A stretch of 22,353 nt of DNA, taken from positions 1 through 22,353 of the IMG/VR virus record IMGVR_UViG_3300042465_006048, one strand, 5' to 3'. This document shows positions 6,499 to 22,353 of the stretch, piece after piece; the stretch's first letter is position 1, and each line of letters starts with the position of its first letter. The notes under the pieces are model-generated. The model saw only the letters and a program-made list of their open reading frames with translations, did no database searches and was not told where the DNA came from. The position numbers and the translations under genes are program-made. The DNA is from a virus.

Positions 6499-8067
6499 AT
6501 GGCAAAAGGATTGGCAGCATTCGCGGTAGGCCTTGGCAGTGGCTACCTCACCGCCCAACAACGTGGACGCGATCAAGAGCGCCAGGACAGGCAAGACGCC
6601 CAAAATTCAGAGCTTCATGGCTTGCGTATGGATGAGGCGAATGCAGCCAAGAGCCTGCGCATGGGGCTGGCGGATGCCGTCAAGCCGGCCACGCTGAATG
6701 AAAGCGCGCCCACGCTGGCCATGGCGGATGGCACCAAAACAGCCTACGACAGCGCCGACACCGCGGGCTCAGACTTCCGGCAACTGCGCCGCAATGATGA
6801 GGCCACCGGGCAGCAGACCCTGGCACGCGCCACGCTGGCGGGTGGGGCGAATCTTCCGGGTGAGACAGTGGCCGCCGCACCCACGCCGGGGATTGCCTTA
6901 AACGGCAAGGCATTTGATGGTGACATCACCCAGGCCCGCGCAGCCCAGACCGCGTACAACACGCCCCAAGCTCAAGCGCAGCGCATTGGTACCGCCTACA
7001 GCGCCAACGGCAAGCCCCTGGAAGCCATGCAGTATCAGAAGTCAGTGGACGACATCGAGCAGGCCCGAAAAGATCGCTTCTCCAAGCTGCAAAGCGAAGG
7101 CGCAGTACGCACCGCGCGGGCCATGCTGTCAGGCAGCGCGGACGATGTATTCAGGACATTCAACGCACAAGGCAAATCCAAGCTGAAGGAGGCGCCCACG
7201 GTCACCACCGAGGATGTGGAGATGCCCGGCATTGGCAAGGTGAAAAACCACATTTTCAGCGGCACCCTCATTGATGAGAGTGGGCAGGAAAAGCCGTTCA
7301 CCATGAGCAGCCACGATGCCAATATGGCCCTGATGAACTACAAGGACATGCTGGAGGTGCAGCGCAAGGGGTTATCCGGCGAGGGTATTGCTGAGCACCG
7401 GGCTGGATTGCTTGATCTCAAGGGCGAGCAAATCAAACTTCAAAACGAATTAGGACTGGCACGCATTGAGGCGGCCAAGAACAAGGCGGGCGCCAGTGGC
7501 CAGCCAACCCGCGAAGAGCGCCTACGTTACACCAGCCTGTTCCAAGATGCGGGACGGCAAGCCACCCAGGCTCAGAAATCTATCAGCGCCCTGTTGAAAG
7601 ACCCGCTGTTTGCGATTGGCCTGAAACAGAATCCCAACGGCCCGGAAGCCCAAGAGATGAACGCGCTCAAAGAAGCATTGAAGCGCCACAACGAAGAGCG
7701 AACGCTTTACCAAGGCATGCTGGTCGAGTCCCAAACAACCGGCGCAGCGTCCGCGCCTGGTAATGCTTCGCCATCCGCTACCAAAGTACCCGCCCAAGTG
7801 CAGCAGGCCCGCGACGGTGACCGCCTTGGCATCCTAAATGCCGAACTCAAAAAAGCGACCGAGCAAGGCAATCAAGGCGACATTGACTCGCTGACCCGTG
7901 AGATTGGCCGGGAGAAACCAGCCAAACCGGGGTTGGCCGACCAAAACACTCCACCAAAGCCGGTTGCCAAGGCGACCGCAAAAACACCATCTACCGGTGA
8001 AGTCCGTGGCGGCTATCGGTTCAAAGGTGGCAATCCAGCAGACAAAAAGAATTGGGAGCAAATCTAA
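6499..8067 (+). CDS. Probable internal virion / DNA-ejection protein
   Basis: A 522-residue protein with AAGGA at 6488-6492 before its ATG. The N-terminus (about residues 1-20) is small-residue rich and mildly hydrophobic. It is followed by a long charged helix (RGRDQERQDRQDAQ), Ala/Gln-rich stretches, a more structured centre (about residues 225-285), another helical block (about 290-420) and a low-complexity Pro/Lys/Ala tail. No enzyme motif is visible. Composition and position between the S74 protein and the giant polyvalent gene resemble T7 gp15-like ejection proteins. Its stop overlaps the giant gene's start (TAATG at 8065-8069), indicating stoichiometric, coupled translation. Its last residues (NWEQI) echo the PWEQY motif near the start of the giant protein. 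Confidence 0.65.
   Translation: MAKGLAAFAVGLGSGYLTAQQRGRDQERQDRQDAQNSELHGLRMDEANAAKSLRMGLADAVKPATLNESAPTLAMADGTKTAYDSADTAGSDFRQLRRNDEATGQQTLARATLAGGANLPGETVAAAPTPGIALNGKAFDGDITQARAAQTAYNTPQAQAQRIGTAYSANGKPLEAMQYQKSVDDIEQARKDRFSKLQSEGAVRTARAMLSGSADDVFRTFNAQGKSKLKEAPTVTTEDVEMPGIGKVKNHIFSGTLIDESGQEKPFTMSSHDANMALMNYKDMLEVQRKGLSGEGIAEHRAGLLDLKGEQIKLQNELGLARIEAAKNKAGASGQPTREERLRYTSLFQDAGRQATQAQKSISALLKDPLFAIGLKQNPNGPEAQEMNALKEALKRHNEERTLYQGMLVESQTTGAASAPGNASPSATKVPAQVQQARDGDRLGILNAELKKATEQGNQGDIDSLTREIGREKPAKPGLADQNTPPKPVAKATAKTPSTGEVRGGYRFKGGNPADKKNWEQI
8054..8058 (+). promoter_or_regulatory. Ribosome binding site of the giant gene
   Basis: GGGAG lies eight bases before the ATG at 8067, inside the end of the previous gene. 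It is part of a ten-base sequence, TTGGGAGCAA (8052-8061), repeated exactly at 8111-8120. Confidence 0.6.
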
Positions 8068-9340
8068 TGGCTAAGCCCTGGGAAGAATTTTCTAGTCAAG
8101 AGCAATCCCCTTGGGAGCAATACGCCGGCACCGAGGCGGACGATGGAAGCCGCGACCTGCCAGACGATATTAAGCCGTCCACAGCAGGAGCAGGGCGAGG
8201 GATTACCCGGCCCGCCATGGGATTGGCAGACGCACGCCCCAGCACAGCACCGGCACCGTCTGCCGCGGCGCCCGCCAAAGTCCGCAGTGGCTCCGTGTTG
8301 GAAAACGTCACTCTGGATGATCCCCAGCTTGACCCGGAGCTAAACCGTCAGGCCATGCTGCAGTCGCGCAGCCCGAATTCGGTGATGTTCACAGCTGGAC
8401 GAGGAAAGCAGGAGGCTGATCAGGCAATCGAACAAGGCGCTAAGCTAGAGGCGCTGGCAAAAAAAGGCCGGTATGACTCCGTGCCCGACATGCTGACGGC
8501 CCAAACTGAATCAGCAAATCGTAAAAAGTTCGCCAAAGAGAATCCAAACATTGGCGCGGTAGCCTCCGGTGCTGCCAATATGCTGAAGGGCTCCATCAAC
8601 GCGCCGAGCGCGATGGCTGGCTTTGTGAATAAGACGGTTGTTGACCCGGTTTTAGGGGCGGTTGGGGCTAACCCCATGCCAAACGCCCCTATTGCTCCGG
8701 GCACAGACGAATTGAGCGCCATGGCTGGCGACTACATGCCAGCGGTTGCCAAGCTGCCAATGGGGAAGGCATGGGACTCGGGCGTTTTTGGTGAATGGCT
8801 GGCTGCCAATGTATCAGCTCAGGTTCCACAAATTGGCGGGCAAATCGTTGGCGTCATGAATCCCGCCATGCGCGGGGCAATTCTCCCAACAATGGGCGCT
8901 CAAGCTGCTGGCGGTAGCTTTGCCGAGGGGGATGACCCGCGCGTGGCGGTTGCAAAAGGCGTGCTTGAAGTGCTCTCCGAAGGGGCTTCGTTTGGTGTGG
9001 CGGACAAGATCAAAGACGCCATCATGAAGCTGCCGCAAAGCGCCCAACAGGCGGTGTTTGCCAATATTGCCAAGCGATCTTTGGCAGTCGGTGGAGCGGT
9101 CACCGGTCAAATGCTTGCTGGAGCCGTAGAGGAAACAACCGCTCAAATTGGCGGGAATGCCTTAGACATTTATGCATCAGGCAAAGACAAGCCCCTGATG
9201 GACAAGGTGGATGAGTCGGCAGTGATTGGTGCGTTTGCATCAGCTGGCATGAGCCTGCCCAACACCGTGACAGCGCTTCAGGACAACTCGCCACAAGCGC
9301 AAGTGGCGCGAGAATTGTCCCGCACACTTGACGGCGGCAG
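8067..9340 (+). other. Giant protein: N-terminal ejection-like region
   Basis: Residues 1-425 begin with two Pro-Trp-Glu motifs (PWEEF at 4-8, PWEQY at 15-19), a style seen at the N-termini of large podovirus ejection proteins. A long stretch follows (about 160-410) rich in Gly, Ala, Val and Met with amphipathic helices and no charged clusters. Examples are the ASGAANML, GGQIVGVMNPAMRGAILP, SLAVGGAVTGQMLAGAVEETTAQ and VIGAFASAGMSLP segments. I infer a membrane-interacting or trans-envelope part that lets the protein leave the virion ahead of, or with, DNA. No lytic transglycosylase motif is seen. Confidence 0.55.
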
Positions 9341-12300
9341 ATTCAAGGCCGCACCCAGCACACCCACCCCGGACCAGGGTACAACCCCTGAGCAACTAGC
9401 CCGCCAAAAAGGCTTCTTGGCCCGCGAGCAGCGCATCAAGACCCTGACCGAAGCCGGCGACACCGCCACGGCCGACCTGTTGCAGAAGAAGCACGACCGC
9501 CAGACCGCGATTGAAGAGGTGGACGGCGAGCTGCAGCGCATGCCCAGCACGCCAGAATTCGCCAACAACTACCGCAACCTGCGCGGCACGGGCATGAAAC
9601 CCGCCGAGGCTGCAGCCCGATCCGCGGTGACCACCACATTCCAAGGCGCAGCCGTTGCGGCCGGCATCCCTGATGCTGCAATGGCGACCGCATTGGAGAA
9701 GGCCAACGGCATGCCGCTGGACGAGGTGCCCGCCTTCTTGCAGAAGTTCACCGCTGCCCTGGAAAAACGTGGACTGGCCCAGCCGGGTGCCGTCAACTTG
9801 GGTGAACAGCTTGAGGCGGCCCGTGATGATGCGATTGAGGCCGCCATGGGCGCGGTGTATCAGCAGGGTGATATTCGCAATGACATGAATGATGTTCTGG
9901 CCATGGAGGGGCGGGGCGCGCCTGAAGCGGTGGATTTGCAGCCTAATCAGCCTCTAGCCGCTGAATCAATTGCACCGGTAGCTACTGAAAATATAGCGCC
10001 TGCACAAGCACCGGATGTGCAAGACGATGTTGAGCGCGCTCGGATGGAAAAGGCATATGGAAAACCAGCGCTGAGAGCCAGATATGAAGCTGACGGTGGT
10101 TTCAACTTCAATGAAAATAATGATGGAAGTATTGAGGCCTCTACGAGTGCAGTCAACGGATTCCCAGAAGGCGATGTGAAAGGGCTGAACGTCCGATTGA
10201 ATTTAACGCCACAAGAAAAGAAAGCTTTGAAGGCTGCCAATGCAGACTTTGAACTTGCGGACACGCCAGAAGAAAAGTCAGAAGCAATGACAGCCAAGCG
10301 AAATGCACTTCGTCCCGCCGTGGAACGGGCGCTGCAAGACGATAACAGCACCCCGTCAGCCGCCACCCAAAGCGCACAGCCAGCCGCACCAGTTACGCAA
10401 CCTGCACAGCCTGTCACGGGTGAAGGGGCCGGGGGTTCCCAGCCGACGCAGGTTGCTCCAAAACCAGCCCCCAAGCCTTTCGCAGAACTGCCCGACCTCG
10501 ACCCTGAGCAGCAGCAGCAACTGGACAGCGACCTTTCCGACGCCAACGAGCGCGAGTACCAGCAAAGCGTCAAAGAGAGCATTCAGGTGCGCCTGGGCCT
10601 GATCAAGCCCACAGAGACGGACCAGAAGAAAACACCCTTCAAAACCTTCCTGCGCCAGTACGGCATTGCGCCTGTGCACACCAGCGACATTGCAGGCAAG
10701 AACCGGTTTAAGGCGAACAACATGCTGCCGGCCACCTTTCGCAAAGGCGGGCTGGACCTGGATTCACTGGTAGAGCGTGCGATTGAACGCGGATTCATGA
10801 CCGAGGCCGACCGGGGCGACCAGGGCAAGCTGATCAGCATGATTCAAAGCGAGATCGCGGGCGATGCTCAAGTGTCCACCGAGTTTGCGGACGATGACGC
10901 AGCCGCGCAGACCGAGCGGGCGCAGCGCATGGAGATCGAGGGCCAAGCCGATAAGCTGGGCCTGCCGTACAGCACCGACACCAGCACCGACCAACTGGCG
11001 AGCATGGTCAACCGTGTGCAGCGGCGCATGGAAAAAGAGGTGGACGTGAGCTACAACGGGCGGGGCTCGCTGAAATCTGAGCGCGTGCTGGCCAATGCGC
11101 GTGAAGTCGCTGCACGGATTGAGCGCAAGCGGTCACAATACCGACGCGATCTGGCTGAGTTTGAGCGGGCAACCATTGCCGAGCAGGATGCAGTCCTTGA
11201 AATTCTGACGGATGATGATGGCTACCCCATGATCGTGCGCGGTGCCGACATCAGTGCGCTGGAGCAATGGCTTCAGGAAAACCAACAATGGGACAACGGA
11301 TATGAAACTGACAGCAGAGCAAATCAGGATTCGGGACAAACTGGCGCACCTGTCGCCGGAGTCTCGCAAGAAGGTGTTGGAAATGGCGCGCAAGCTGGCC
11401 CCCAAGAACAACGACGAGGCAATGAAGCACCGGATGCAGGCCAAGAAGGCAGCGAAGGCTTAACCGCGCCCACCCGCGCCGATGTCCTGGCGCAGCAGGA
11501 GCGCACCGAAAACGCGCAAGCACTGGATGACCGGGCGCAGATTGATGCCGAGGCTTCACGCCAGACCCTGACCCGCCAGAATGCGCCCGAGCAGCGCCGC
11601 GACACCAGTGTCGATATGTTTGGCGAAGAAAAGGCTGTGCTGGAAAGCGCCAAGAAAGACGCAGACGCAGCGGCCAAGAACGAGGCCGCCAAAGACCCGA
11701 ACCAGACGGGCATGTTTGATGAGCCTGCGGAGCCCGAAGCGCAGGCCGAGCCAACCGAGATTAACTACAACGGCACCCGCATTTATCAATCCAAGATCAA
11801 ATTGGCGGATGGTGCAGAACCATCTATTCGATGGACAGTCGAGTCACAAGAAAACAAGGCCCTGAAATCTGATGGCAAGCGCGCCATTGGTGGTGACTCA
11901 TTGCATTCAACATTGCCAGAAGCCAAGAAGGCCGCTGATTTTGAGGCAGCAAAGTACAAGCAAGACCAAGAGCGCAAGGCCAAACTGGACGCCGAAAGCA
12001 ATGCCACACAGGAGGCCGCACAAGCCAAGAAGGACGCCAACAAAGATAAGTCGCTTTCTGAAATAAAGGCTGAGCAGTTCCTTGCTCAAGATGTTCGCAA
12101 TGGCGCGACGGGCGAGGTTACATCAAGGGCCGAATGGGTGCGAGCTAAGATTGAAGCAGGGGAAAAGCCGACTACTCAGATGGTTGACAAGATCAAGCCA
12201 ATGACGCGCACCGCATACAACCGAGCGAGCAACCAAGAGCAATCGGCGCACGAAAAGAAGATCAAAGACGGCGGGAAAGTACCCGAATACTCAATCGGTG

Positions 12301-15300
12301 ATTTTGTTGTTACCAAGACAGAATACGACTACGCGCAGTCATTGAGCGATTCGTTTGCAGCAAAGCCCGCACCAAAAGCAGATCGAATCCCAAAATCCCT
12401 TATTGATCTTGGCTTCGAGTTGCTGCCGGCCACCCGTACAGGTGGAGCGCAGAACGAGGCAACCTGGACAAGCTCAAAAACTGCCCCATACACGCGGATC
12501 AGCGTCGCGCACACGCCAAATCCAAACGCATTCCGGGTGACATTGGGCGGCCGCATGGTTGGCCCATTTGGAGAAAACGCACTGCCGACAAAAGACGTTG
12601 GAACATTCACCACTGAACAGGCTTTGATTGACGCCATCAAGCCGATCATTGGTGAGTCTGCACCCGCCAAGGCAGAGACAGCCCCCGCGTGGCACACCAA
12701 GCTACCAGAAACCGGCGTGGCCTTCAAGCTGGGCGACGAGAAAGTGGACGGCTCACGCAGCGCGATCGGACGCATTGCCCAAGAAGCTGCTGAAGCCATC
12801 ACTCAAATTCAGAACCTGAACGGTGGCAAGATGTACGCCTATGTGCTGCCATCGACGGCAACCGAGCACGGCGCCCTACGCTTGCTGCCAGAAGATCAGA
12901 CGCCGCCTGCACCCTGGAAGATGGCCACGGGCGAGGGGCTGCGAACCGGGTTCATGACCGGGGATCAGTTGACTGCCAAGCTGCGCGAGATTCTGCAAAG
13001 CCAGCCTGTGCTGACCAGTGGTGACAACAAAGCCATGGCCGAGGCCTTGACCAGCCCACCGAAGGCGAGAGCAGTCAAGCCGGCCCAGCCAGCCGCACCA
13101 GCCCAGCCCGCAGCCAAGGCCCCAAGCCCTGAAGAACTGCGCGCCCAGGCTGACCTGATGGCTGCACTGGCCGACCTGGGTGACATCTTTGGCAAAAACA
13201 CCCGCATGAACATGATGCCCGAGCAGGAGGCCAAGATTCTGCCGGTGATGGTGAAGCTGTTTGATGCCGCTTTCCGCATTGGTTACATCAAGTTCAAGGA
13301 TGCCGCCAAGTTCACTTTGGACAAGATTCGCGCCGCATTGGGAAGTGATGTGGCCGATGACATCACCCTGGAGCACCTGCAGGGCGCCTACATTTCCATG
13401 TCAAGCGGGAAAACTGGCGTGGATGGCATTCGTGCCGTGAGCAACATTGAATCAAAATCAGAGGTCGAGGCGCATACTGCCCAGACCGAAAACGAACGCA
13501 CCGGAGAATCAAATGCACCAAGTACCGACAGCCGTGTGGAACGAGATCGCCAAGGCGCAGCCACTGAGTCAACCGTGGGCGACTCTGTTTCGCCTGAGCC
13601 CGGAGGAACTGACCAAGCAGCTGCCAAAACTGGTGGACGATCCAATCGAGGCGCAGGGCGCGGACAACTCGACGGTGTTGGCTTATCGTCTGGTGGCACC
13701 GTTACTGCAGGAAACGGAGGCGATCAGCGCGTACCTGGAAGAGACGCAGAATCTGAACTTGCGAGCGTCACTGCCGGAGATCAATTCAGTGAACGAGGCG
13801 CTTCTATTGGCATCAGCGGAATACCGCCTGAACCCATCCCAGCAAAGTCTGTTGCGAAAGCTGCTCAATCGTTTGATGACGCCCTGACCAAAAGCCGCGC
13901 ACAGAAGGCGGCCGCCAACGTCAAGCCCATCACGGGCGATCTGCAGAACATCAGGGACACACTGCCCCAGCTGCTGCCCAACCAGCAGGAAGATGTGCAC
14001 CTGGCCGAACAGCGCTTTGCCAAGGCAGACGGCTACGGCATGTTGTTCACCAATGGCACGGGCACGGGCAAGACCTTCAGCGGACTGGGCATCATCAAAC
14101 GCCATGAGCTGCAGGGCAAGACAAACACCCTGATTCTGGCGCCAGACACCAAGATTGCATCCGACTGGATCAAGTCGGGCAAGCTGCTGGGCCTGAACAT
14201 CACAGAACTGGCCGACACCAAAGACGCGGGCAAGGGCATTGTCATCACGACCTATGCCAACATTGGGGCCAATGACGCTGTGGCCACGCGCCAATGGGAT
14301 TTGGTGGTGGCCGATGAGGCGCACACGCTGATGCAGGACAAGGACGGCACGCCGACCAGCTACCTATACAACTTGCGCGCGATCACCTATCACCCGAACG
14401 GCGCCGGCATCCGCCACACCATGCTGAACCGCGACAAGTTGGACAAAGCCAAGGCTCTGGGCGATGAGATTGAATCGCTTGAGCGCATGGTGGCCGCTGA
14501 TAGCACCACGGATGCCCAGCGAAACACCTGGGAATCCAAGAGCGAGGCGCTTCAAAAGGAGTTGGCCGACCTGCGTAAAGCCCTGTTTGAATCTCAGAAA
14601 GCCATGACAGCCGAAGTGGCCGCGCGCCAGGGTGCCACACGCCCCCGCCTGGTGGCCTTGTCCGCTACCCCATTCGCCTATGAAAAGACCATCGACTGGG
14701 GGAATGGCTACCTGTTCGATTACAACGAAGGCCGGGGCGACGAGAGCAAGGAATTCCGGGGCTACAACGTGGGGAGCAACCGCGAGCAGTATTTCATGCA
14801 GCACTTTGGCTACTCCATGCGCGTGGGAAAGATGACCACCCCCGACGCCCGGGTGGACAGCGGCCTGATGCAACGCCAGTGGAATGGCAACCTGAAGAAA
14901 TCCGGCTCCCTGTCTGGGCGTATGCTGGACGTGGTGCCTGACTACGATCGGCGCTTTGTAATGGTAGATTCAGCCATTGGTAGCCGAATTGATGAAGCCC
15001 TTGAATGGCTGACCGAGCAGCGGCGGGCAGCCAAAACGGATGATGATGGGTTTTCGGTGTTGTCGGATGCCATCAACGATCAGTTTAAGTACCTGCAAAA
15101 GCGCTATCTGCTGGAGGCCATCAAAGCCACTGAGGTGATCCCAATTGTGAAAGCTCACCTAGCCCTGGGCCGCAAGGTGGTGGTGTTTCACGACTACAAG
15201 AGAGGCGGGGGATTTAACCCCTTCGCCATCACCCCAGGCAGCGCAGTCGCCAATGCCGGGGCAGCGCAGGCCATCAAAGCATCCAACTTCAATGAAGCGC

Positions 15301-18300
15301 TGGCCGCCTTCAATGCCAAGTTTAGCGATCTGGTGAACTCCAATCTTGGCTCAATGGATTTTCCCATTGAGATTTTCAGCCGGGAACTGCCGCAGACGTT
15401 GCTGATCAATGGTGACGAAAAGAAATCGGACCTACTCAAACGCTATGAGTTGTTCCAAGATGACGCCAGCGGCCCTCAGGTCATGCTGGTGCAATCCGCC
15501 AAGAACAAGGGCTGGAGCGGGCACGACACCACGGGCAAACACCAGCGCGTGCTGATCAACCTGGGCCAGCCCACAGCCCCCACCACAGCGATTCAGCAAG
15601 AAGGTCGCATTTACCGCACTGGGCAGGCATCCGACGCGATCATGCGCTACCTGAACACCGGCACAAGCTGGGAGCGCTTGACGTTCGCCCGCGACATTGC
15701 TGGGCGGGCCAGCACGGCCGAGAACCTGGGCATGGGCGAGATGGCGCGCGCGCTGAAGGATTCATTCATCCAGTCGTTTGAGGAATCCGACACCTACGCC
15801 CCCGGCCATGAGGGCGAGGGCAAGGGAGGCAAGGAGCGCGACAAGGCGGCCAACGATGCAGTGACCGAGTACGACCGCGCCAAGTCGATGTACTTTGCCA
15901 CCCAGAAGAAGAACAGTCAGACCAAGGCGAAGGAGGGTGTGGACTACTTCGCCACCCCGGAGCCCGTGGGCCTGAAAATGGTGCAATGGTTGGACGCCCG
16001 GCCAGATGAATCCACCCTGGAGCCCAGCGCGGGCCATGGTGCCATCTCCCGCTGGCTGCCTGATGTGACCAAGCGCACGGTGGTGGAGCCGAGTCTGGCG
16101 CTACGCTCGCGCCTGGCGCTGGCCATGAACCCGAACGAGGACCGCATCATTGCCGGCACGTTTGAGGACTTGGATGTGACCAACAAGTATGACGGGATCG
16201 TGATGAACCCGCCATTTGGCACGGCTGGCCGCACGGCGGTGGATCACATTGCCAAGGCGGCAACCCACTTGCGCGACGGCGGCCGGATTGTCGCGCTGCT
16301 GCCTATGGGATCGGCCACGGCCAAGTTCGACAAGTGGTTTTATGAGTCGAGCGAGAAGCCGGTTAAGCCATTGCTCACACACCCAACGCACGGACCCATC
16401 TACAAAGGCGATACCGTAACGTCGCGGGCCGGGTTCATCCCCAATTCGAGCACCGGAATATCGGTTGATTCAATTCGTGACGGCGTGCTGCAAACCAAGG
16501 TGACGGCCTTCGGACGGTCTTACCTGACCTCGATCACGCCAGAATCCATTACCGGAGTGAAGCCAACCGGCAAGCGCACCGAGTCATTCAAGCCAGCCGA
16601 AGGCCTGCACCTGGTGGCGAGCATCCAGCTGCCCCAAGTCACCTTTGAGCGGGCGGGAACGGCAGTGGCTACCCGGATCGTGGTGATTGAGAAGCAAACG
16701 GACAGCGCAAAGGCGCCCGCCAGTGGCTTGCAAGACCGCGATCTCTCAGGCATCACAGACATCACCGAGTTGTTCAATCGACTGGAGAACATTGAGATGC
16801 CAAGGCGGGACGTTGCCGCTGTGGCTGAACCCGCAGCGCCCGCCAAGGCAGAAAAGCCAGCCCGCGCACCCAAGCCCACGGCAGCACCAGCCGCAGCGGT
16901 AGGTGACCAGATCAGTATGGGCGGCAATCAATACCCGGTTGAGGTCTACACGACCAACGCCGGCAAGGACTTGCGCGGGGTCTGGGTGGGCTCCAAGGCC
17001 GAAGCCCTGAAGTACGGGCCAAGCACGTTCGAGAAGCGCGGAAAAGGCTTCTTTGTGCGGGAGCGGGATTTCCCGGCAGTTGTCAATGAGCCAGCAGCAG
17101 CCTACACTGTGGAGGCACCTCGCAAAAAGTACCCCAATGAAAACCAGTTTGAAATGTTCCTCGGTAGTGAGCCTGACGCAAGCCAGGCAGGACCAGCCGT
17201 TGAGGTATCCAGACGGGACGCTGTTGCCGCCATACAGGACCTACACGCCACCGGCTCCGTACTTGCTCAAGCCCTGTCAAGTGATTACGCTGCCCGCCAA
17301 AGAACCAACCTCATCGGGCAAACCGTAGGGAGTAGCGAGGACCTGGCGGTTCTGGCACAACTGTACCGTGATCCCCGGTTTGAGACGTTCCGGGTGATCT
17401 TCACCGGGATGGGTGGAAAAGTGGTGGCTCAGATTGGATTGACCAGCCGACTGCCAGGCTCAACCAACGCCATTGTCGGGGATGACATCGACATCTACCT
17501 GGATGACCTGTCCCGCACAGCCCGCCAGCGCGGGGCCTCCGGTTACTACCTGCTGCACAACCACCCCAGCGGCAACCCGACACCCAGCCGCGCCGACCAG
17601 ATGGCAACCAAAGAGTTTGATGTCCGCATGCCGGGGCTCAAGTTCAAGGGGCATGTGGTCATCGACACCAACCAGTATTCTGTGATCGCTGGCGATGGGA
17701 CTCACAAAACCTTTGACCACGACTTCGGGCAAGCCGATCCCATGACATCAAGCCAATGGGGAGGCATGACCTTCAGCGGCCCGCAAGATGTGATGGCTGT
17801 CGCCCGTCAAATGCAGGTAGATGAGGATGCCGTGACGCTGATCGTGACCAACAGCCAGTACAAGGTGATGAGTGTGACCACCATCCCGCATGCAGCCATC
17901 ACCACCGACAGCGCTGCAAACAAACTGATGCTGACCAAGGCCGCTTTGCAAGGAAAGGGCTCGCATCTGTTTGCCGTAGGCCGTAACGCGATGCTGTTGA
18001 CTCGATTGAGTGGCAGCGTGATGGATGCCATTTATGTGTCCGACACGGGAACCGTTGCCAGTTTGGGGGCTGTGAGTGCAATCAAAGCGGGTTCGCCTTT
18101 CCCGAATGACCGCCGAACACGCTTGAGCGCCGACACCAGCCCCGAGTTTGATTACCTGCGCCCGCAAACGGTGCAGCAAACCCAAGGGCAAAAGGTGGCT
18201 GAACCCGTGCGGTCGCAGACCGACACGCCCGCTTTCAAGGCGTGGTTTGGTGACAGCAAAGTGGTCAACAAGGACGGCACGCCCCGGGTGATGTATACGG

Positions 18301-21300
18301 GGACCTCTGTGGACAAGGATTTCACACAGTTCAAGATGGCAAAGAATGGTGTCTGGTTCACGATGTGGCCCGATTCAGCCTCTGAATACGCCATAGAGAA
18401 CGACAGTAAGGGTTTGAAATACAACCCGGACACCAGGAAGTATGACCCGGTGAATTCAGCTTCCCGCGTGATTCCTGTCTACCTGAGTATCAAAAACCCT
18501 TACCCCATGACAAGCGCGGACATGCAGCGGGTGAATGTTCAAAATTACAAAGCGGCTCAAGCAAAACTGTTTGAAGAATTGCGCGCCAAGGGGTTTGATG
18601 GTGTCCAGTGGGCGCCGACTGAATGGGTGGCCATCGGGACATCAAACCAGATCAAGAGCGCCATTGGGAACAACGGCGACTTTTCCGAAAAGGGAGACAT
18701 TCGCTACAAGCGCTCGCAGTCCGCACCATCCGGCCAATCCGTAGCCGACACCCAGGCCCAGGTGAACAAGATCACGTCCAAGCAGGCCAACGGCCCGCGC
18801 ACCATCGTGGTGGCTACGCCAGCCGACTTGCCCGTGGACGCACCCGGTGATGCCCGGGGCATGTACCTGCGCGGCACGGTCTATATCGTGGCATCCAACA
18901 ATGTGAACGCCCGTGAGGTGGCCAGCACCCTGGCGCACGAAACCATTGCCCACCATGGACTGCGCAACATGCTGGGCCGTGAGGACTGGCTGAAGCTGAT
19001 GGGCAACATTCAATTGGCGCTGGCATCTGGCAACAAGCCGCTGAACGCCATCCGGGCCGACATTCGCAAGGCCTATGTGGATGAGAACGGCGTCTACAAC
19101 CTGAACAAAAATCAGGAGTCCGACGAGATTACCGCGCGCGCGGTGGAGCTGGCCATTGACGAAAATGGCGAGTTCAAGCCGGGCTTTGGCATGTTCAAGT
19201 TGGTTTACGCCAAGCTGGCCCAGTTCCTGCGGGAGATGGGTTTCACAGTCGCCTTCACCAATGTGGAGCTGCAGGGCATGCTGGTGGGTTCCATGCGCAA
19301 CCTGGAGACAGGCGCCCGGACGATGGGCGGGGGTAGCACGGTGGTTGCTGCGAGTCGCGTCGGGGAGCAAAGCCAGGCCGACATTGCCCAGGACTTGAGC
19401 CGCATTGGCGCCAAGATCGCCAGCATGGGTTACGAGGCGGGTGCGGTTCCAAGATTGCACGCAGCGCAAAAGCTGGCCAGCCTCGTCAAGCGCCTGGAGG
19501 AAGGCAAGATCAGCGAAGCCCACTTCACCCTGGCCGTCAAAGACTTGTCGCTGGATATGGCAAACGTGGTGGATACCAAATCAGCCAACCGCCTTATGTC
19601 AGATCGCCAGCGCGGCGCCGATTTGGTGCGCGAGAAACTGATTCGATCCAGGCGTCAAGGAGATATTGACTCCGAGACAGTTGAGTTTGCGCTTTGGGCG
19701 CTGGATCAGAACCCAAGCCTTGCTGAAAATCTTGGCATCAGCATTCGAGCCCCCAAGGATGGTTCGGCTGCAGCCGATTACAACCCGTCTATTGAGATCA
19801 TGCGTCTATTCAAGGGAAAGGGAAATCCCGATAGTGCCGTGCATGAAATCCTGCACCATGCCGAGCGCATGATGCCGCCTGAGATGCAAACCGCCATCCG
19901 CAAAGAATGGGCTGCCGAACTGGCCAAGGTCATCAAGAACGCCACGCCTGAGCAGCAAACCGCTTTGGGGCACATCCCGGCCGCACTAGCCGGCGACCGG
20001 AAAGCCTACAGTGCATTGGTGAAAGCCATTCAGGAAGGCCCGTTGAACTACGCGGAGCACTACCAACTGGTCAACCCAAGTGAATTTTGGGCGGTGAATG
20101 GCAGCCGAATTCTTGGAAACAAGTTTCTATCCAAAGACTCCATTTGGCTGAAAGTGCGCGACTGGCTGCGCAACATGACGCAGACGGCAAAGGGCTTGCT
20201 TGGACTGCGATCCGATGCGGCCATCATCAAGGCGCTGCGAAATGTGACTGACCCCGATAACTTTGGTGCCGAGCGTGGTGGGCGGTTCATGACCGACGCG
20301 ATGCTGTCAAACACCAAAGAGATGGCTGCTGACGGGGTAATGCAAGATATTCGTTTCGCCCGGGGCCGGTCCCCCCAGGCCAACCTGTTTCAGCCCACCG
20401 GCTGGAGCATGCCCGACCCAACCAGGACAGACCGGATCATTTACGAGCTGCAAGACGGCCGCGTAGACCTCAAGCGCGCTCAGGCCGCCATTGAACAGAC
20501 TGGCCAGCAGATCATTGAAAAGTGGGATGCTCGCCTGGCCGAAACGCTTTACCCGGGCCGGGTCGCCTACCGCAGCAAGGGCTTTCTTGATACCGAGGTC
20601 AAGCCGCTACTGGAAGCCATGGCCCGCCAAAACCTGAGCATGAACGAGCTGGCCGACTACCTGCACGCCCGCGGCGCCGAAGAGCGCAACAAGCAGATTG
20701 CCAAGGTGAACCCGGCCATGCCAGACGGTGGCGCTGGCACCAACACCAAGGGCGATCTGATGACCAACCAGGCCGCACGGGACTATCTGGCCAACATCCG
20801 GCCGGCCCGCCTGCAGGTGCTGGACGCCATGGCCAAGCGAGTGGACGCCATCACCGGGGGCACGCGCGCGCTGCTGGTCACCGAGGGATTGGAGAAGCAG
20901 AGCACCATCGACGCTTGGGAGGGTGCCTATAAGAACTATGTGCCCATGTTCCGAGATGAGGCTGAAGCCGGCGCACCGCACCCGCAGGGCTCAGGCTTTT
21001 CAGTGCGCGGCAGTGCCAGCAAGCGGGCAACCGGCAGCACCAAGGAAGTGACCAACATTCTGGCCCACGTTCTGATGCAGCGCGAGGCGGCCATTACCCG
21101 GGCTGAAAAAAACCGCGTGGGCCTGGCGCTGTATGGCCAAGCCATGAGCCATCCCAACCCCGAGTTCTGGACAACGATCAAGCCCAGCATGAAGCCGGCA
21201 CAGATTGCGGCCGAACTGATGGCGATGGGTGTGGACCCGATGACGGCCCAGGTTGGCATGGAGGGTGCGCCCACCATCCGCACGGTAGACCCGACCACGG

Positions 21301-22353
21301 GAAAAGTCGTGGATCGTCCCAACCCCATGTATAAAAGCCTGCCCGGGGCGATTACGGTACGCATTCATGGGGAAGACCGGGTGCTGATGTTCAATCAGAA
21401 CAATGTGCGGGCGATGCGCTTGGCAGGCAGCTTGAAAAATCTGGATGGGGTGACCAAGTTGGACATCTCCGCAAATATTATGGGGCAGGCCACCCGCTGG
21501 CTGGCGTCGGTGAACACCCAGTACAACCCGGCGTTTGGCTTGGTCAACGTGGTGCGCGACACGCTGGGTGCTGCTGTAAATCTTGGTAGCACGCAACTGC
21601 GGGGTAAATCTTTGGAGGTGCTGGCCAAGACACCCGTAGCGATTGTTGGCATTGCCCGCGAGCTTTACAAAGGCGGGCAGGGCGGCAAGTGGCAGAAGTT
21701 GTACCGCGAGTTTCAGGCAGATGGTGGGCAGACGGGATTCAAGGATAACTTTAGGGACCCCAACGAACGGGCCAAGGCCATCGAGTCCGAGTTGAAGGGT
21801 GTTGGCCGGGCCATCTGGAACCCGGCCCGCATGGCCCACATGATTCTCGACTTGCTGGACGGATTCAACACCACGTTGGAGAACGCTGTTCGCCTGAGCG
21901 CCTACAGTGCGGCACGCGACAACGGCATCAGCCGAGCCAATGCGGCCCGCTTGGGGCGTGAGTTGACGGTGGACTTCAACCGTAAGGGGCGAACCGGGCG
22001 TGAGATAGGTCCGCTGTATGCCTTCTTTAATGCAGCCGTGCAAGGAACTGCCCGAACCATGGAGGCTATCAAGGGGCCAACTGGCGGAAGGATTGTCGCG
22101 GGCGGCCTGACGCTGGGGGCTTTGCAAGTGCTGGCGCTGGCCATGGCCGGATATGAAGACGACGAGGTGCCAGAGTTTGTGAAGACGCGGGTATTTGTGA
22201 TTCCCATGGGCACCAACAAAGATGGCAAGCGCACCTACATCACCATTCCTTACCCGCTGGGGCTGCACGTCATCCCCAACACCGGGCGCGTGCTGACTGA
22301 GTTGGCTTTGAATGGCGGAAAGGATATGGGCAAGCGCACGGGCGAGGCCATTG
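8067..22353 (+). CDS. Giant phage polyvalent protein (DarB-like helicase/methylase, JAB, ART, zincins, LPD38-like), 3' end beyond window
   Basis: One frame is open from ATG 8067 to the window edge with no stop: at least 4,762 codons. I checked frame continuity at the helicase, methylase, JAB, zincin and C-terminal motifs. Order: ejection-like N-terminus (1-425), linkers and helical blocks (426-1950), SNF2-type helicase (1958-2610), N6-adenine methylase (2622-2890), RadC-like JAB (3077-3223), ADP-ribosyltransferase (3389-3551), two zincin-like segments (near 3624 and 3926), and an LPD38-like end (4112 on). This is the polyvalent-protein architecture known from phages and conjugative elements, and P1 DarB is the best understood relative. 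Such proteins are packaged and injected with DNA to block restriction and other defences. The start overlaps the upstream stop. Two small ORFs are nested in its +1 frame. Which activities are live is untested. Confidence 0.93.
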   Translation, partial: MAKPWEEFSSQEQSPWEQYAGTEADDGSRDLPDDIKPSTAGAGRGITRPAMGLADARPSTAPAPSAAAPAKVRSGSVLENVTLDDPQLDPELNRQAMLQSRSPNSVMFTAGRGKQEADQAIEQGAKLEALAKKGRYDSVPDMLTAQTESANRKKFAKENPNIGAVASGAANMLKGSINAPSAMAGFVNKTVVDPVLGAVGANPMPNAPIAPGTDELSAMAGDYMPAVAKLPMGKAWDSGVFGEWLAANVSAQVPQIGGQIVGVMNPAMRGAILPTMGAQAAGGSFAEGDDPRVAVAKGVLEVLSEGASFGVADKIKDAIMKLPQSAQQAVFANIAKRSLAVGGAVTGQMLAGAVEETTAQIGGNALDIYASGKDKPLMDKVDESAVIGAFASAGMSLPNTVTALQDNSPQAQVARELSRTLDGGRFKAAPSTPTPDQGTTPEQLARQKGFLAREQRIKTLTEAGDTATADLLQKKHDRQTAIEEVDGELQRMPSTPEFANNYRNLRGTGMKPAEAAARSAVTTTFQGAAVAAGIPDAAMATALEKANGMPLDEVPAFLQKFTAALEKRGLAQPGAVNLGEQLEAARDDAIEAAMGAVYQQGDIRNDMNDVLAMEGRGAPEAVDLQPNQPLAAESIAPVATENIAPAQAPDVQDDVERARMEKAYGKPALRARYEADGGFNFNENNDGSIEASTSAVNGFPEGDVKGLNVRLNLTPQEKKALKAANADFELADTPEEKSEAMTAKRNALRPAVERALQDDNSTPSAATQSAQPAAPVTQPAQPVTGEGAGGSQPTQVAPKPAPKPFAELPDLDPEQQQQLDSDLSDANEREYQQSVKESIQVRLGLIKPTETDQKKTPFKTFLRQYGIAPVHTSDIAGKNRFKANNMLPATFRKGGLDLDSLVERAIERGFMTEADRGDQGKLISMIQSEIAGDAQVSTEFADDDAAAQTERAQRMEIEGQADKLGLPYSTDTSTDQLASMVNRVQRRMEKEVDVSYNGRGSLKSERVLANAREVAARIERKRSQYRRDLAEFERATIAEQDAVLEILTDDDGYPMIVRGADISALEQWLQENQQWDNGYETDSRANQDSGQTGAPVAGVSQEGVGNGAQAGPQEQRRGNEAPDAGQEGSEGLTAPTRADVLAQQERTENAQALDDRAQIDAEASRQTLTRQNAPEQRRDTSVDMFGEEKAVLESAKKDADAAAKNEAAKDPNQTGMFDEPAEPEAQAEPTEINYNGTRIYQSKIKLADGAEPSIRWTVESQENKALKSDGKRAIGGDSLHSTLPEAKKAADFEAAKYKQDQERKAKLDAESNATQEAAQAKKDANKDKSLSEIKAEQFLAQDVRNGATGEVTSRAEWVRAKIEAGEKPTTQMVDKIKPMTRTAYNRASNQEQSAHEKKIKDGGKVPEYSIGDFVVTKTEYDYAQSLSDSFAAKPAPKADRIPKSLIDLGFELLPATRTGGAQNEATWTSSKTAPYTRISVAHTPNPNAFRVTLGGRMVGPFGENALPTKDVGTFTTEQALIDAIKPIIGESAPAKAETAPAWHTKLPETGVAFKLGDEKVDGSRSAIGRIAQEAAEAITQIQNLNGGKMYAYVLPSTATEHGALRLLPEDQTPPAPWKMATGEGLRTGFMTGDQLTAKLREILQSQPVLTSGDNKAMAEALTSPPKARAVKPAQPAAPAQPAAKAPSPEELRAQADLMAALADLGDIFGKNTRMNMMPEQEAKILPVMVKLFDAAFRIGYIKFKDAAKFTLDKIRAALGSDVADDITLEHLQGAYISMSSGKTGVDGIRAVSNIESKSEVEAHTAQTENERTGESNAPSTDSRVERDRQGAATESTVGDSVSPEPGGTDQAAAKTGGRSNRGAGRGQLDGVGLSSGGTVTAGNGGDQRVPGRDAESELASVTAGDQFSERGASIGISGIPPEPIPAKSVAKAAQSFDDALTKSRAQKAAANVKPITGDLQNIRDTLPQLLPNQQEDVHLAEQRFAKADGYGMLFTNGTGTGKTFSGLGIIKRHELQGKTNTLILAPDTKIASDWIKSGKLLGLNITELADTKDAGKGIVITTYANIGANDAVATRQWDLVVADEAHTLMQDKDGTPTSYLYNLRAITYHPNGAGIRHTMLNRDKLDKAKALGDEIESLERMVAADSTTDAQRNTWESKSEALQKELADLRKALFESQKAMTAEVAARQGATRPRLVALSATPFAYEKTIDWGNGYLFDYNEGRGDESKEFRGYNVGSNREQYFMQHFGYSMRVGKMTTPDARVDSGLMQRQWNGNLKKSGSLSGRMLDVVPDYDRRFVMVDSAIGSRIDEALEWLTEQRRAAKTDDDGFSVLSDAINDQFKYLQKRYLLEAIKATEVIPIVKAHLALGRKVVVFHDYKRGGGFNPFAITPGSAVANAGAAQAIKASNFNEALAAFNAKFSDLVNSNLGSMDFPIEIFSRELPQTLLINGDEKKSDLLKRYELFQDDASGPQVMLVQSAKNKGWSGHDTTGKHQRVLINLGQPTAPTTAIQQEGRIYRTGQASDAIMRYLNTGTSWERLTFARDIAGRASTAENLGMGEMARALKDSFIQSFEESDTYAPGHEGEGKGGKERDKAANDAVTEYDRAKSMYFATQKKNSQTKAKEGVDYFATPEPVGLKMVQWLDARPDESTLEPSAGHGAISRWLPDVTKRTVVEPSLALRSRLALAMNPNEDRIIAGTFEDLDVTNKYDGIVMNPPFGTAGRTAVDHIAKAATHLRDGGRIVALLPMGSATAKFDKWFYESSEKPVKPLLTHPTHGPIYKGDTVTSRAGFIPNSSTGISVDSIRDGVLQTKVTAFGRSYLTSITPESITGVKPTGKRTESFKPAEGLHLVASIQLPQVTFERAGTAVATRIVVIEKQTDSAKAPASGLQDRDLSGITDITELFNRLENIEMPRRDVAAVAEPAAPAKAEKPARAPKPTAAPAAAVGDQISMGGNQYPVEVYTTNAGKDLRGVWVGSKAEALKYGPSTFEKRGKGFFVRERDFPAVVNEPAAAYTVEAPRKKYPNENQFEMFLGSEPDASQAGPAVEVSRRDAVAAIQDLHATGSVLAQALSSDYAARQRTNLIGQTVGSSEDLAVLAQLYRDPRFETFRVIFTGMGGKVVAQIGLTSRLPGSTNAIVGDDIDIYLDDLSRTARQRGASGYYLLHNHPSGNPTPSRADQMATKEFDVRMPGLKFKGHVVIDTNQYSVIAGDGTHKTFDHDFGQADPMTSSQWGGMTFSGPQDVMAVARQMQVDEDAVTLIVTNSQYKVMSVTTIPHAAITTDSAANKLMLTKAALQGKGSHLFAVGRNAMLLTRLSGSVMDAIYVSDTGTVASLGAVSAIKAGSPFPNDRRTRLSADTSPEFDYLRPQTVQQTQGQKVAEPVRSQTDTPAFKAWFGDSKVVNKDGTPRVMYTGTSVDKDFTQFKMAKNGVWFTMWPDSASEYAIENDSKGLKYNPDTRKYDPVNSASRVIPVYLSIKNPYPMTSADMQRVNVQNYKAAQAKLFEELRAKGFDGVQWAPTEWVAIGTSNQIKSAIGNNGDFSEKGDIRYKRSQSAPSGQSVADTQAQVNKITSKQANGPRTIVVATPADLPVDAPGDARGMYLRGTVYIVASNNVNAREVASTLAHETIAHHGLRNMLGREDWLKLMGNIQLALASGNKPLNAIRADIRKAYVDENGVYNLNKNQESDEITARAVELAIDENGEFKPGFGMFKLVYAKLAQFLREMGFTVAFTNVELQGMLVGSMRNLETGARTMGGGSTVVAASRVGEQSQADIAQDLSRIGAKIASMGYEAGAVPRLHAAQKLASLVKRLEEGKISEAHFTLAVKDLSLDMANVVDTKSANRLMSDRQRGADLVREKLIRSRRQGDIDSETVEFALWALDQNPSLAENLGISIRAPKDGSAAADYNPSIEIMRLFKGKGNPDSAVHEILHHAERMMPPEMQTAIRKEWAAELAKVIKNATPEQQTALGHIPAALAGDRKAYSALVKAIQEGPLNYAEHYQLVNPSEFWAVNGSRILGNKFLSKDSIWLKVRDWLRNMTQTAKGLLGLRSDAAIIKALRNVTDPDNFGAERGGRFMTDAMLSNTKEMAADGVMQDIRFARGRSPQANLFQPTGWSMPDPTRTDRIIYELQDGRVDLKRAQAAIEQTGQQIIEKWDARLAETLYPGRVAYRSKGFLDTEVKPLLEAMARQNLSMNELADYLHARGAEERNKQIAKVNPAMPDGGAGTNTKGDLMTNQAARDYLANIRPARLQVLDAMAKRVDAITGGTRALLVTEGLEKQSTIDAWEGAYKNYVPMFRDEAEAGAPHPQGSGFSVRGSASKRATGSTKEVTNILAHVLMQREAAITRAEKNRVGLALYGQAMSHPNPEFWTTIKPSMKPAQIAAELMAMGVDPMTAQVGMEGAPTIRTVDPTTGKVVDRPNPMYKSLPGAITVRIHGEDRVLMFNQNNVRAMRLAGSLKNLDGVTKLDISANIMGQATRWLASVNTQYNPAFGLVNVVRDTLGAAVNLGSTQLRGKSLEVLAKTPVAIVGIARELYKGGQGGKWQKLYREFQADGGQTGFKDNFRDPNERAKAIESELKGVGRAIWNPARMAHMILDLLDGFNTTLENAVRLSAYSAARDNGISRANAARLGRELTVDFNRKGRTGREIGPLYAFFNAAVQGTARTMEAIKGPTGGRIVAGGLTLGALQVLALAMAGYEDDEVPEFVKTRVFVIPMGTNKDGKRTYITIPYPLGLHVIPNTGRVLTELALNGGKDMGKRTGEAI
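10339..11295 (+). other. Giant protein: Pro/Ala/Gln linker and helical LPD-type region
   Basis: A low-complexity linker (about residues 758-806: runs of A, P, Q, T) leads into a charged helical region (807-1077). This contains FLRQYGIA and GLDLDSLVERAIERGFMTEAD, a pattern I associate with polyvalent-protein-associated domains, and a long Arg/Glu helix ending before WDNG. No catalytic motif is visible. It ends where the first nested ORF begins (11302). Confidence 0.45.
11302..11463 (+). CDS. Nested small ORF A in the +1 frame of the giant gene
   Basis: A 53-residue ORF starting at ATG 11302, fully inside the giant gene. GGGA at 11290-11293 is eight bases upstream, a modest ribosome site. The product is basic and helical (MKLTAEQIRIRDKLAHLSPE to QAKKAAKA), with protein-like amphipathic spacing. 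By hand count its third positions are G/C in 42 of 53 codons (79%), while the overlapping giant-frame codons have 19 of 52 (37%). The giant frame here encodes only a Gly/Gln/Glu/Ala-rich linker. This suggests selection acts on the nested frame. It could be a true overprinted gene, or a relic of a once separate gene. Function unknown, with no recognised family. Confidence 0.5.
   Translation: MKLTAEQIRIRDKLAHLSPESRKKVLEMARKLAPKNNDEAMKHRMQAKKAAKA
11600..12860 (+). other. Giant protein: clamp-like motifs, coiled coil and unknown domains
   Basis: Residues about 1180-1600 start with SVDMF (1181-1185) and QTGMF (1213-1217). These are followed by a beta-rich stretch (INYNGTRIYQSKI...), a Lys/Ala/Asp coiled coil (about 1290-1330) and a helical domain (AEQFLAQDVRNGATGEVTSR, RAEWVRAKIEAG). 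The last part (about 1440-1600) contains a small mixed domain with FRVTLGGRMVGPFG. I do not recognise named enzymes here. The arrangement resembles the accessory regions that precede DarB-like helicases in other polyvalent proteins. Confidence 0.4.
13120..13405 (+). other. Giant protein: helical domain before the helicase
   Basis: Residues about 1685-1780 form a compact, predicted all-helical domain (RAQADLMAALADLGDIFG, FDAAFRIGYIKFKDAAKF, ITLEHLQGAYISM) of the kind found just upstream of SNF2 helicase modules in phage DarB-like proteins. A Pro/Ala linker precedes it. A disordered stretch overlying nested ORF B separates it from the helicase. Confidence 0.45.
13503..13506 (+). promoter_or_regulatory. 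Ribosome binding site for nested ORF B
   Basis: GGAG is six bases before the ATG at 13513, close to ideal placement, even though it lies inside the giant gene. It favours independent translation initiation on the nested frame. Confidence 0.5.
13513..13887 (+). CDS. Nested ORF B in the +1 frame of the giant gene
   Basis: A 124-residue ORF with ATG at 13513 behind GGAG. The product is leucine-rich and looks all-helical (LSPEELTKQLPKLVDD, YRLVAPLLQETEAISAYLEE, LLASAEYRLNPSQQSLLRKL), with an ordinary globular composition. Hand-counted GC3 is 88 of 124 codons (71%) in this frame, against 48 of 123 (39%) in the giant frame. The giant frame here yields a Gly/Ser/Arg/Asp linker without apparent fold. 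The ORF stops at the point where the giant protein's helicase module begins. I take it as a probable real overlapping gene of unknown function. A fossil gene overprinted by fusion of its neighbours is the alternative. Confidence 0.62.
   Translation: MHQVPTAVWNEIAKAQPLSQPWATLFRLSPEELTKQLPKLVDDPIEAQGADNSTVLAYRLVAPLLQETEAISAYLEETQNLNLRASLPEINSVNEALLLASAEYRLNPSQQSLLRKLLNRLMTP
13940..15900 (+). other. Giant protein: SNF2/DarB-like superfamily 2 helicase module
   Basis: Residues about 1958-2610. The following are intact: motif I GTGTGKT (1997-2003, Lys2002), motif II DEAH (2083-2086), motif III SATP (2199-2202), and motif VI QQEGRIYRTGQ (2510-2520, Arg2514 and Arg2517). Motif VI in this QxGRxxRxGQ form is typical of SNF2-type translocases. 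An inserted coiled coil (about 2130-2180) lies between motifs II and III. With the methylase that follows, the layout matches P1 DarB, which acts on incoming DNA to protect it from type I restriction. ATP-driven DNA translocation is the expected activity. Confidence 0.88.
15930..16740 (+). other. Giant protein: N6-adenine DNA methylase domain
   Basis: Residues about 2622-2890. FATPEPVG (from 2628) precedes the AdoMet-binding motif EPSAGHG (2652-2658), a second acidic strand (TVVEPS), and the catalytic motif IV NPPF (2714-2717), the signature of N6-adenine methylases. ALLPMG follows as a further core strand. All key residues are present, so activity is plausible. Fused to the helicase, it may modify phage DNA on entry. 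Site specificity cannot be read from the sequence. An Ala/Pro/Lys linker (about 2917-2945) follows. Confidence 0.85.
17295..17735 (+). other. Giant protein: RadC-like JAB/JAMM metallopeptidase domain
   Basis: Residues about 3077-3223. The JAMM zinc signature is complete: Glu3106 in FETFRVIF, then H3163-x-H3165-P-S-G ... P172-S173-x-x-D176 (numbering within 3100s), as in RadC and related JAB domains. The family includes isopeptidases that remove ubiquitin-like proteins, and JAB-type phage tail proteins. In an injected protein it could cleave a host conjugate or process the giant protein itself. That role is inference. Confidence 0.83.
17736..18075 (+). other. Giant protein: post-JAB alpha/beta domain
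   Basis: Residues about 3224-3336, with alternating strands and helices (VTLIVTNSQYKVMSVTTIP, GSHLFAVGRNAMLLTRLSG). The strand pattern recalls a JAB fold, but the HxHP and Ser/Asp metal motifs are missing. It could be a degenerate duplicate or an unrelated domain that accompanies JAB in polyvalent proteins. Confidence 0.35.
18231..18720 (+). other. Giant protein: PolyVal-type ADP-ribosyltransferase domain
   Basis: Residues about 3389-3551. FKAWFGDSKVV and YTGT (3410-3413), GVWFTMWPDSASEYA, PVYLSIKNPYP, GFDGVQW and TEWVAI..SNQIKSAIGNNGDF follow the order of ART domains of phage polyvalent proteins. The likely catalytic Glu is E3519. At the first NAD-binding position many relatives have YHGT and here it is YTGT, so activity is uncertain. 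Such domains may ADP-ribosylate host proteins early in infection. Confidence 0.78.
18780..19330 (+). other. Giant protein: first zincin-like segment (HExxxH)
   Basis: Residues about 3572-3755. After beta strands (GTVYIV) comes LAHETIAHHG, with H3624, E3625, H3629 and H3630. The spacing is HExxxH rather than HExxH, as in dipeptidyl-peptidase III (HELLGH). The SDEITARAVE helix (D3686, E3687) could provide the third zinc ligand. Metallopeptidase-like, with activity unproven. Confidence 0.55.
19650..20300 (+). other. Giant protein: second zincin-like segment (HExxH)
   Basis: Residues about 3862-4078. AVHEILHHAE (H3926, E3927, H3930) is a canonical HExxH. Downstream comes SEFWAVNGSRIL, with a Glu that could complete the site, then an amphipathic block (KVRDWLRNM, AKGLLGLRSDA). 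The pattern matches the second peptidase-like segment seen in long phage polyvalent proteins. It may be an intact zinc protease acting on host or self. Confidence 0.6.
20400..22353 (+). other. Giant protein: LPD38-like C-terminal region (incomplete)
   Basis: Residues 4112 to the window end. A helical lead with many charged residues is followed by QYNPAFGLVNVVRD (near 4484-4497), LDLLDGFNTTLENAVRLSAY, PLYAFFNAAVQGTARTM (Asn4655) and one hydrophobic helix (about 4674-4697) before a beta-rich, Pro-containing stretch (VIPMGTNKDGKRTYITIPYP). The Asn-Pro...Asn...Arg-Asp and Phe-x-Asn-Ala signatures are those I associate with the large polyvalent protein associated domain 38. The end lies beyond the window. 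Confidence 0.6.

Follow-up and report, generated by a model that had tools for sequence, protein, structure and literature searches.

Whether an open reading frame (ORF) lying wholly inside a much longer one encodes a protein, or is merely a by-product of the longer frame's composition, is the question raised by positions 13513-13887 of a viral contig (IMG/VR record IMGVR_UViG_3300042465_006048), analysed here over its whole length of 22,353 bases and referred to as the window. The initial annotation, made from the sequence alone, had proposed that this stretch is a 124-residue gene nested in the +1 frame of a giant ORF, that the small protein is the primary product and that the overlying linker is its passenger. 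The gene itself held, and so did its position immediately before the helicase module, since helicase homology begins just 3' of it; the passenger claim has to be corrected in one respect, as discussed below. The features concerned are collected in Table 1. Within the giant ORF, the presence of an SF2 helicase domain is indicated by ResIII (E 9.2e-9, above the cut-off), and the methylase-like domain rests on two weak matches, namely MTS (22.4 bits against a cut-off of 23) and N6_Mtase (E 0.014). The ORF also matches RadC, ART-PolyVal and LPD38, and its neighbours on the contig comprise lysis genes, an internal virion protein and virion structural genes.

Table 1. Coordinates of the nested ORFs, their enclosing ORF and related features (positions in the window unless a locus is named).
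Feature	Position	Strand	Remarks
Nested gene, ATG to TGA	13513..13887	+	+1 frame of giant ORF; 124-aa protein, predicted all-helical; stop codon 13885-13887
Shine-Dalgarno GGAG	13503-13506	+	6-nt spacer to nested ATG
Enclosing giant polyvalent ORF	8052..22352	+	at least 4767 codons; runs off contig end
Giant-frame codons over nested gene	13512..13886	+	linker rich in Gly/Ala/Asp/Ser, predicted disordered; without stops in any embedded homologue
Helicase module of giant ORF	13971..15737	+	ResIII 13971-14339; Helicase_C_4 15477-15737, the latter below curated cut-off
DNA methyltransferase-like domain of giant ORF	15981..16292	+	Pfam MTS just below cut-off
Second candidate nested ORF	11302..11463	+	basic product of 53 aa; +1 frame; seven further giant ORFs contain relatives
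Relative of second ORF	L002:5191-5343		
Relative of second ORF	L013:5903-6064		
Relative of second ORF	L012:5086-5232		
Relative of second ORF	L034:6143-6328		
Relative of second ORF	L064:2856-2993		
Relative of second ORF	L074:2820-3032		
Relative of second ORF	L110:2730-2855		

The well-placed GGAG noticed by the initial annotation was confirmed, as was its GC3 estimate of 71% in the nested frame against 39% in the giant frame, computed here as 0.71 and 0.40. By codon position, the GC content over the nested gene amounts to 0.63/0.40/0.71 in the nested frame and 0.70/0.63/0.40 in the giant frame; given that the helicase part of the giant ORF displays 0.58/0.42/0.75, it is the nested frame that resembles normal coding sequence, whereas the overlying giant frame does not. 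Besides, resampling of synonymous codons left the nested frame open in only 1.25% of trials when the giant protein was kept, and the giant frame open in 0.25% when the nested protein was kept, so that the nested ORF exceeds what chance would produce. Its reality is settled by the homologues.

By tblastn, the nested protein was detected in eight phage records and one plasmid at 35-54% identity, the carriers being a Comamonas plasmid and phages of Vibrio, Serratia, Klebsiella, Pseudomonas and Ruegeria; Serratia phage Parlo and Pseudomonas phage Skulduggery are among the phages that carry the gene. Each of these copies lies in the +1 frame inside an annotated giant gene (DarB-like, PLxRFG, LPD38 and similar), and in none of the records checked does the nested ORF have a gene annotation of its own, because annotation programs suppress ORFs inside longer ones. 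The same eight records of the phage collection carry both the nested gene and the full helicase-methylase stretch. Scanning of viral contigs with the nested-gene alignment gave 47 loci, and scanning with the downstream helicase gave 225, the best 80 of which were kept; the nested gene was recognised by HMM in 80/80 loci examined. It has to be pointed out that the loci from which the helicase query alignment was made carry the nested gene themselves, and that the two scans partly concern the same contigs. The combined set comprises 139 viral, phage and plasmid loci, with 101 distinct nested sequences forming 86 clusters at 90%. The nested start is ATG in 139/139 loci, all of them in the +1 frame within a longer ORF, and the giant frame has no stop inside the nested gene in any of the 139; the third frame contains up to 19 stops, and the gene is present in AT-rich genomes too. 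A match to AGGAGG precedes the nested start over at least 3 nt in 136/139 loci and over at least 4 nt in 104/139, the 3-nt matches being weak evidence and a recognisable Shine-Dalgarno sequence being missing in three loci.

Bacterial genome contigs scanned with the helicase alignment yielded a further view of the family, with 63 loci down to 31% identity. The nested gene is found in 56 of them, including one partial, decayed copy (L199) and one locus in which a frame shift separates it from the helicase (L202). According to the records, the hosts include Pseudomonadota, Selenomonadales, Bacteroidota and Verrucomicrobiota, but these assignments are uncertain because metagenome bins are among the records; the members from gut Bacteroidota are remote matches (17-30 bits). 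The nested gene is common to phages and prophages of several bacterial phyla, numbering well over a hundred, and is in all likelihood a real gene that annotation pipelines have missed. The block common to distant relatives runs from about the nested gene through the methylase, the upstream giant modules being variable; in Acinetobacter elements, the module is a separate helicase ORF of 1244-1283 codons, with the nested gene still inside. In the 7/63 loci without the nested gene, and in the plasmid L138, the helicase ORF opens 22-64 codons before the helicase match, without any linker. In the helicase tree (119 rows), the nested-gene-free helicases form one side of a single branch, and one gain or one loss therefore suffices to account for the distribution. 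As regards the helicase-only ORFs themselves (L138, L160, L166, L167, L169, L171, L172 and L177), they come mostly from Flavobacteriia, have neither linker nor nested gene, and might represent the ancestral state.

One copy of the nested gene stands free. In a Pseudomonadota genome (L219:6563-6937, + strand), it is intact and adjoins a Sel1-repeat/trypsin-like gene, with no giant ORF around it and no helicase in view, on a contig that ends about 330 nt downstream. Since what was once the giant frame is still free of stops over the nested gene and no farther, this copy is suggested either to have recently left the nested setting or to be a prophage remnant.

Two observations concern the helicase itself. 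In L035 (about 7366-8565), an intein-like sequence interrupts it right after GTGTGK (...GTGTGKAQPLDAGILTPGGWKTMGD...). In L125, L127, L128 and L133, the helicase match starts several hundred bases farther from the nested gene than usual, which could reflect an insertion, perhaps an intein, between the two.

Selection on the two frames can be told apart by codon position. In a +1 overlap, the third position of the nested frame is the first of the giant frame, and the giant wobble position is the second of the nested frame. In 39 disjoint pairs, the substitutions at nested positions 1, 2 and 3 amount to 960, 821 and 1520, an order that gives the nested frame the pattern of an ordinary gene; in the helicase, the corresponding numbers at giant positions 1, 2 and 3 are 1661, 1316 and 3094 (third position, 3094/6071). 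Substitutions are more numerous at the nested third than at the nested second position in 38/39 of these pairs, nested identity exceeds giant identity in 36/39, and the reverse was recorded in merely 5/903 pairs. In a sliding scan along some 2,300 aligned codons, the first giant position has more substitutions than the third over the length of the nested gene, and the usual order returns at both ends of the gene, the same switch being encountered elsewhere only in weakly aligned stretches and at 11280-11477. The nested frame is the better conserved of the two and is under the strongest selection in the region. The initial annotation would have been refuted by homologues with a broken nested frame and a conserved giant frame, or by a lack of excess constraint in the nested frame. 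No such homologue was found (139/139 and 71/71), with L199 as the one partial, decayed copy, and the excess constraint is present in the 36/39 pairs just mentioned.

The linker can be called a passenger in terms of residue identity, which is 0.221 where the nested frame by itself would lead one to expect 0.207. The correction that is needed is that the linker frame is itself selected to stay open and hydrophilic. The giant frame is open over the nested gene in 86/86 cases versus 4.5 expected, and T occurs in 0/1277 of the third positions at which it would put a stop into the giant frame. In addition, T is depleted and purines are enriched also where no stop would form, and this for every fourfold-degenerate amino acid, hence the Gly/Ala/Asp-rich nature of the linker. 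The locus satisfies three criteria of an embedded same-strand overlap: the whole ORF lies inside an ORF of another frame, the embedded frame is under purifying selection, and the enclosing frame is maintained; use of its own start is inferred from the conserved ATG and the usual presence of a Shine-Dalgarno sequence. On this evidence, the ORF at 13513-13887 is very probably a genuine protein-coding overlapping gene, its translation and function being inferred.

The initial annotation had described the nested product as globular and helix-rich and the giant frame as a Gly/Ser/Asp linker without apparent fold, and both descriptions are supported by prediction. AlphaFold2, run with 73 family members, returns a compact eight-helix protein (pLDDT 95.8, pTM 0.89); for the giant-frame product of these bases, which lies between folded flanks, disorder is predicted, with a pLDDT of about 36-47 for most of its length. 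Dual coding is shown at the sequence level, a confidently predicted fold in one frame facing a predicted disordered linker in the other, the folds being those of the model. The nested proteins are mildly acidic and soluble-looking, with a median pI of 5.1. The predicted structure has no known fold, without any Foldseek match in the PDB (best E 2.3) or BFVD (best E 1.1). The database search of the 124-aa product, for which the initial annotation had called, disclosed no known family, no match being significant and consistent across members in Pfam, NCBIfam, PHROGs, PADLOC or PDB sequences, and no similarity to known defence families was found. Isolated weak matches to TY-Chap1 (E 0.09), phrog_34539 (E 0.0083) and HEC-01B (in 1/73) were taken as chance, and the idea of a DNA mimic was rejected with a net charge of merely about -3 per 100 residues. 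Fold and family matches thus give no functional hint.

What the protein does can only be inferred. In the model that we propose, ribosomes would initiate internally at the nested ATG on the giant mRNA, for which no expression data are available, and the small helical protein would probably be made in more copies than the giant one. It may then be a soluble partner dedicated to the DarB-like helicase-methylase next to it, acting as a chaperone, a loading factor or an inhibitor during virion assembly; an inhibitor by which the helicase-methylase is kept inactive in the cell that makes it would fit as well as a chaperone. This partner role is proposed because the nested gene is found together with the module in giant ORFs and shorter helicase-methylase genes alike, and is missing from helicase ORFs without the N-terminal extension. 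It is not proven, because physical overlap alone would yield co-occurrence with the helicase, and the link is not absolute, since the free-standing copy L219 has no helicase in view. The partner role, being inferred and functionally untested, is in our judgement as likely to be wrong as right, and the account as a whole (genuine nested gene, internal initiation, partner of the helicase-methylase) is one towards which we lean only slightly.

The alternative that survives best is that the nested gene is real but independent of the helicase-methylase, for instance a counter-defence or host-takeover protein that came to be encoded in the linker by happenstance and stays there since overlapping genes are hard to separate. 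In favour of it are the intact state of the L219 copy, the fact that overlap explains co-inheritance without any interaction, and the mildly acidic, soluble-looking character of the protein. However, at all other loci the nested gene lies 5' of the same helicase family, even without the rest of the giant ORF, this pairing persists while the neighbouring giant modules change, and known defence families show no similarity to the protein. We therefore hold independence to be the less probable option, without a wide margin. Far less tenable is the view that the giant frame is an artefact, the small gene and a separate helicase gene being the true units and the linker not being translated through. 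It is favoured by the conservation of the linker residues, which hardly exceeds what the nested frame imposes, but no embedded homologue has a stop in the giant frame, none of the stop-making sites carries a T, the giant first codon positions are rich in purines with each of the nested amino acids tested, and the sequences flanking the linker remain in a common frame, which makes this view very unlikely. Finally, that there is no gene at all, the open frame being a by-product of a Gly/Ser/Asp linker in a GC-rich genome, is all but ruled out: the composition of the giant protein alone would leave the nested frame open in 29.7/86 relatives, but this explains neither the substitution pattern, the start-codon conservation and the rarity of pairs in which giant identity is the higher, nor the presence of the gene in AT-rich genomes, the stops of the third frame and the lack of any homologue with a broken nested and an intact giant frame.

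As a kind, embedded phage genes are known, and what is new here is this family, its fold and its setting. Rz/Rz1 spanin genes, whose embedded class has been described (PMC9144972, PMC6139136), and phiX174-type embedded genes likewise consist of a complete gene with its own start in another frame inside a gene. The products of Rz and Rz1 work together. Rz1 is a lipoprotein of the lysis module, whereas the nested protein is soluble-looking, helical and encoded in the linker of an ORF no shorter than 14 kb. For DarB and polyvalent proteins, a DNA methylase-helicase dyad has been described (PMC5512222, in which the word 'overlapping' is absent). The enclosing ORF is DarB-like in its SF2 helicase, RadC, ART-PolyVal and LPD38 matches and in its location among virion genes, to which the weak methylase-like match may be added. 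However, its helicase precedes the methylase-like match, the reverse of the order in that paper, and the DarB-type layout (LPD36, then methylase N-terminal to helicase) is not present, no LPD36 match being found in this ORF. For phage P1, the literature names Ulx and Hdf as helpers of DarB localisation or of Dar incorporation (PMC9024508, PMC12810830). Ulx, DdrA and Hdf belong to the Dar system of P1 and, like the nested product, are small, but they are encoded by separate genes, and neither Ulx nor DdrA was found to be related in sequence to the nested family; the resemblance is no more than an analogy. P1 IddB is likewise an ORF annotated inside a Dar gene (ddrB), but on the opposite strand and without known function; the nested profile has no match in the P1 record with IddB. 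No earlier report of the present overlap was found in the literature searched, most subscription papers lying outside the search.

The position switch at 11280-11477 pointed to a second candidate nested ORF, which is 56% identical to its same-frame counterpart in L002. An iterated profile gathers a family of eight members, all starting with ATG and all in the +1 frame of a long ORF, which are basic, probably helical and 41-70 aa long; a wider search found nothing in viral contigs or phages. With a profile built from few, short sequences, this possible family is to be taken as a lead, not as a finding. Further recurrent alternative-frame ORFs downstream overlie the conserved helicase-methylase, and are likely to be its shadows. 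A bolder reading, which we hold to be somewhat less likely than not, is that the disordered linkers of giant polyvalent phage genes hide a second layer of genes, small and in the +1 frame, with members such as 11302-11463 besides the nested gene discussed here. If true, modules would carry their own helper proteins along when recombining.

The nested gene at 13513-13887 defines a previously unknown protein family, whose fold is predicted with confidence and has no known counterpart. How injected helicase-methylase proteins are assembled into virions is poorly understood, and the nested protein is possibly a factor that they need or that restrains them. Finally, with one frame folded and the other a disordered linker, both by prediction, the locus offers a clean case of dual coding, which helps explain the long stability of overlaps.
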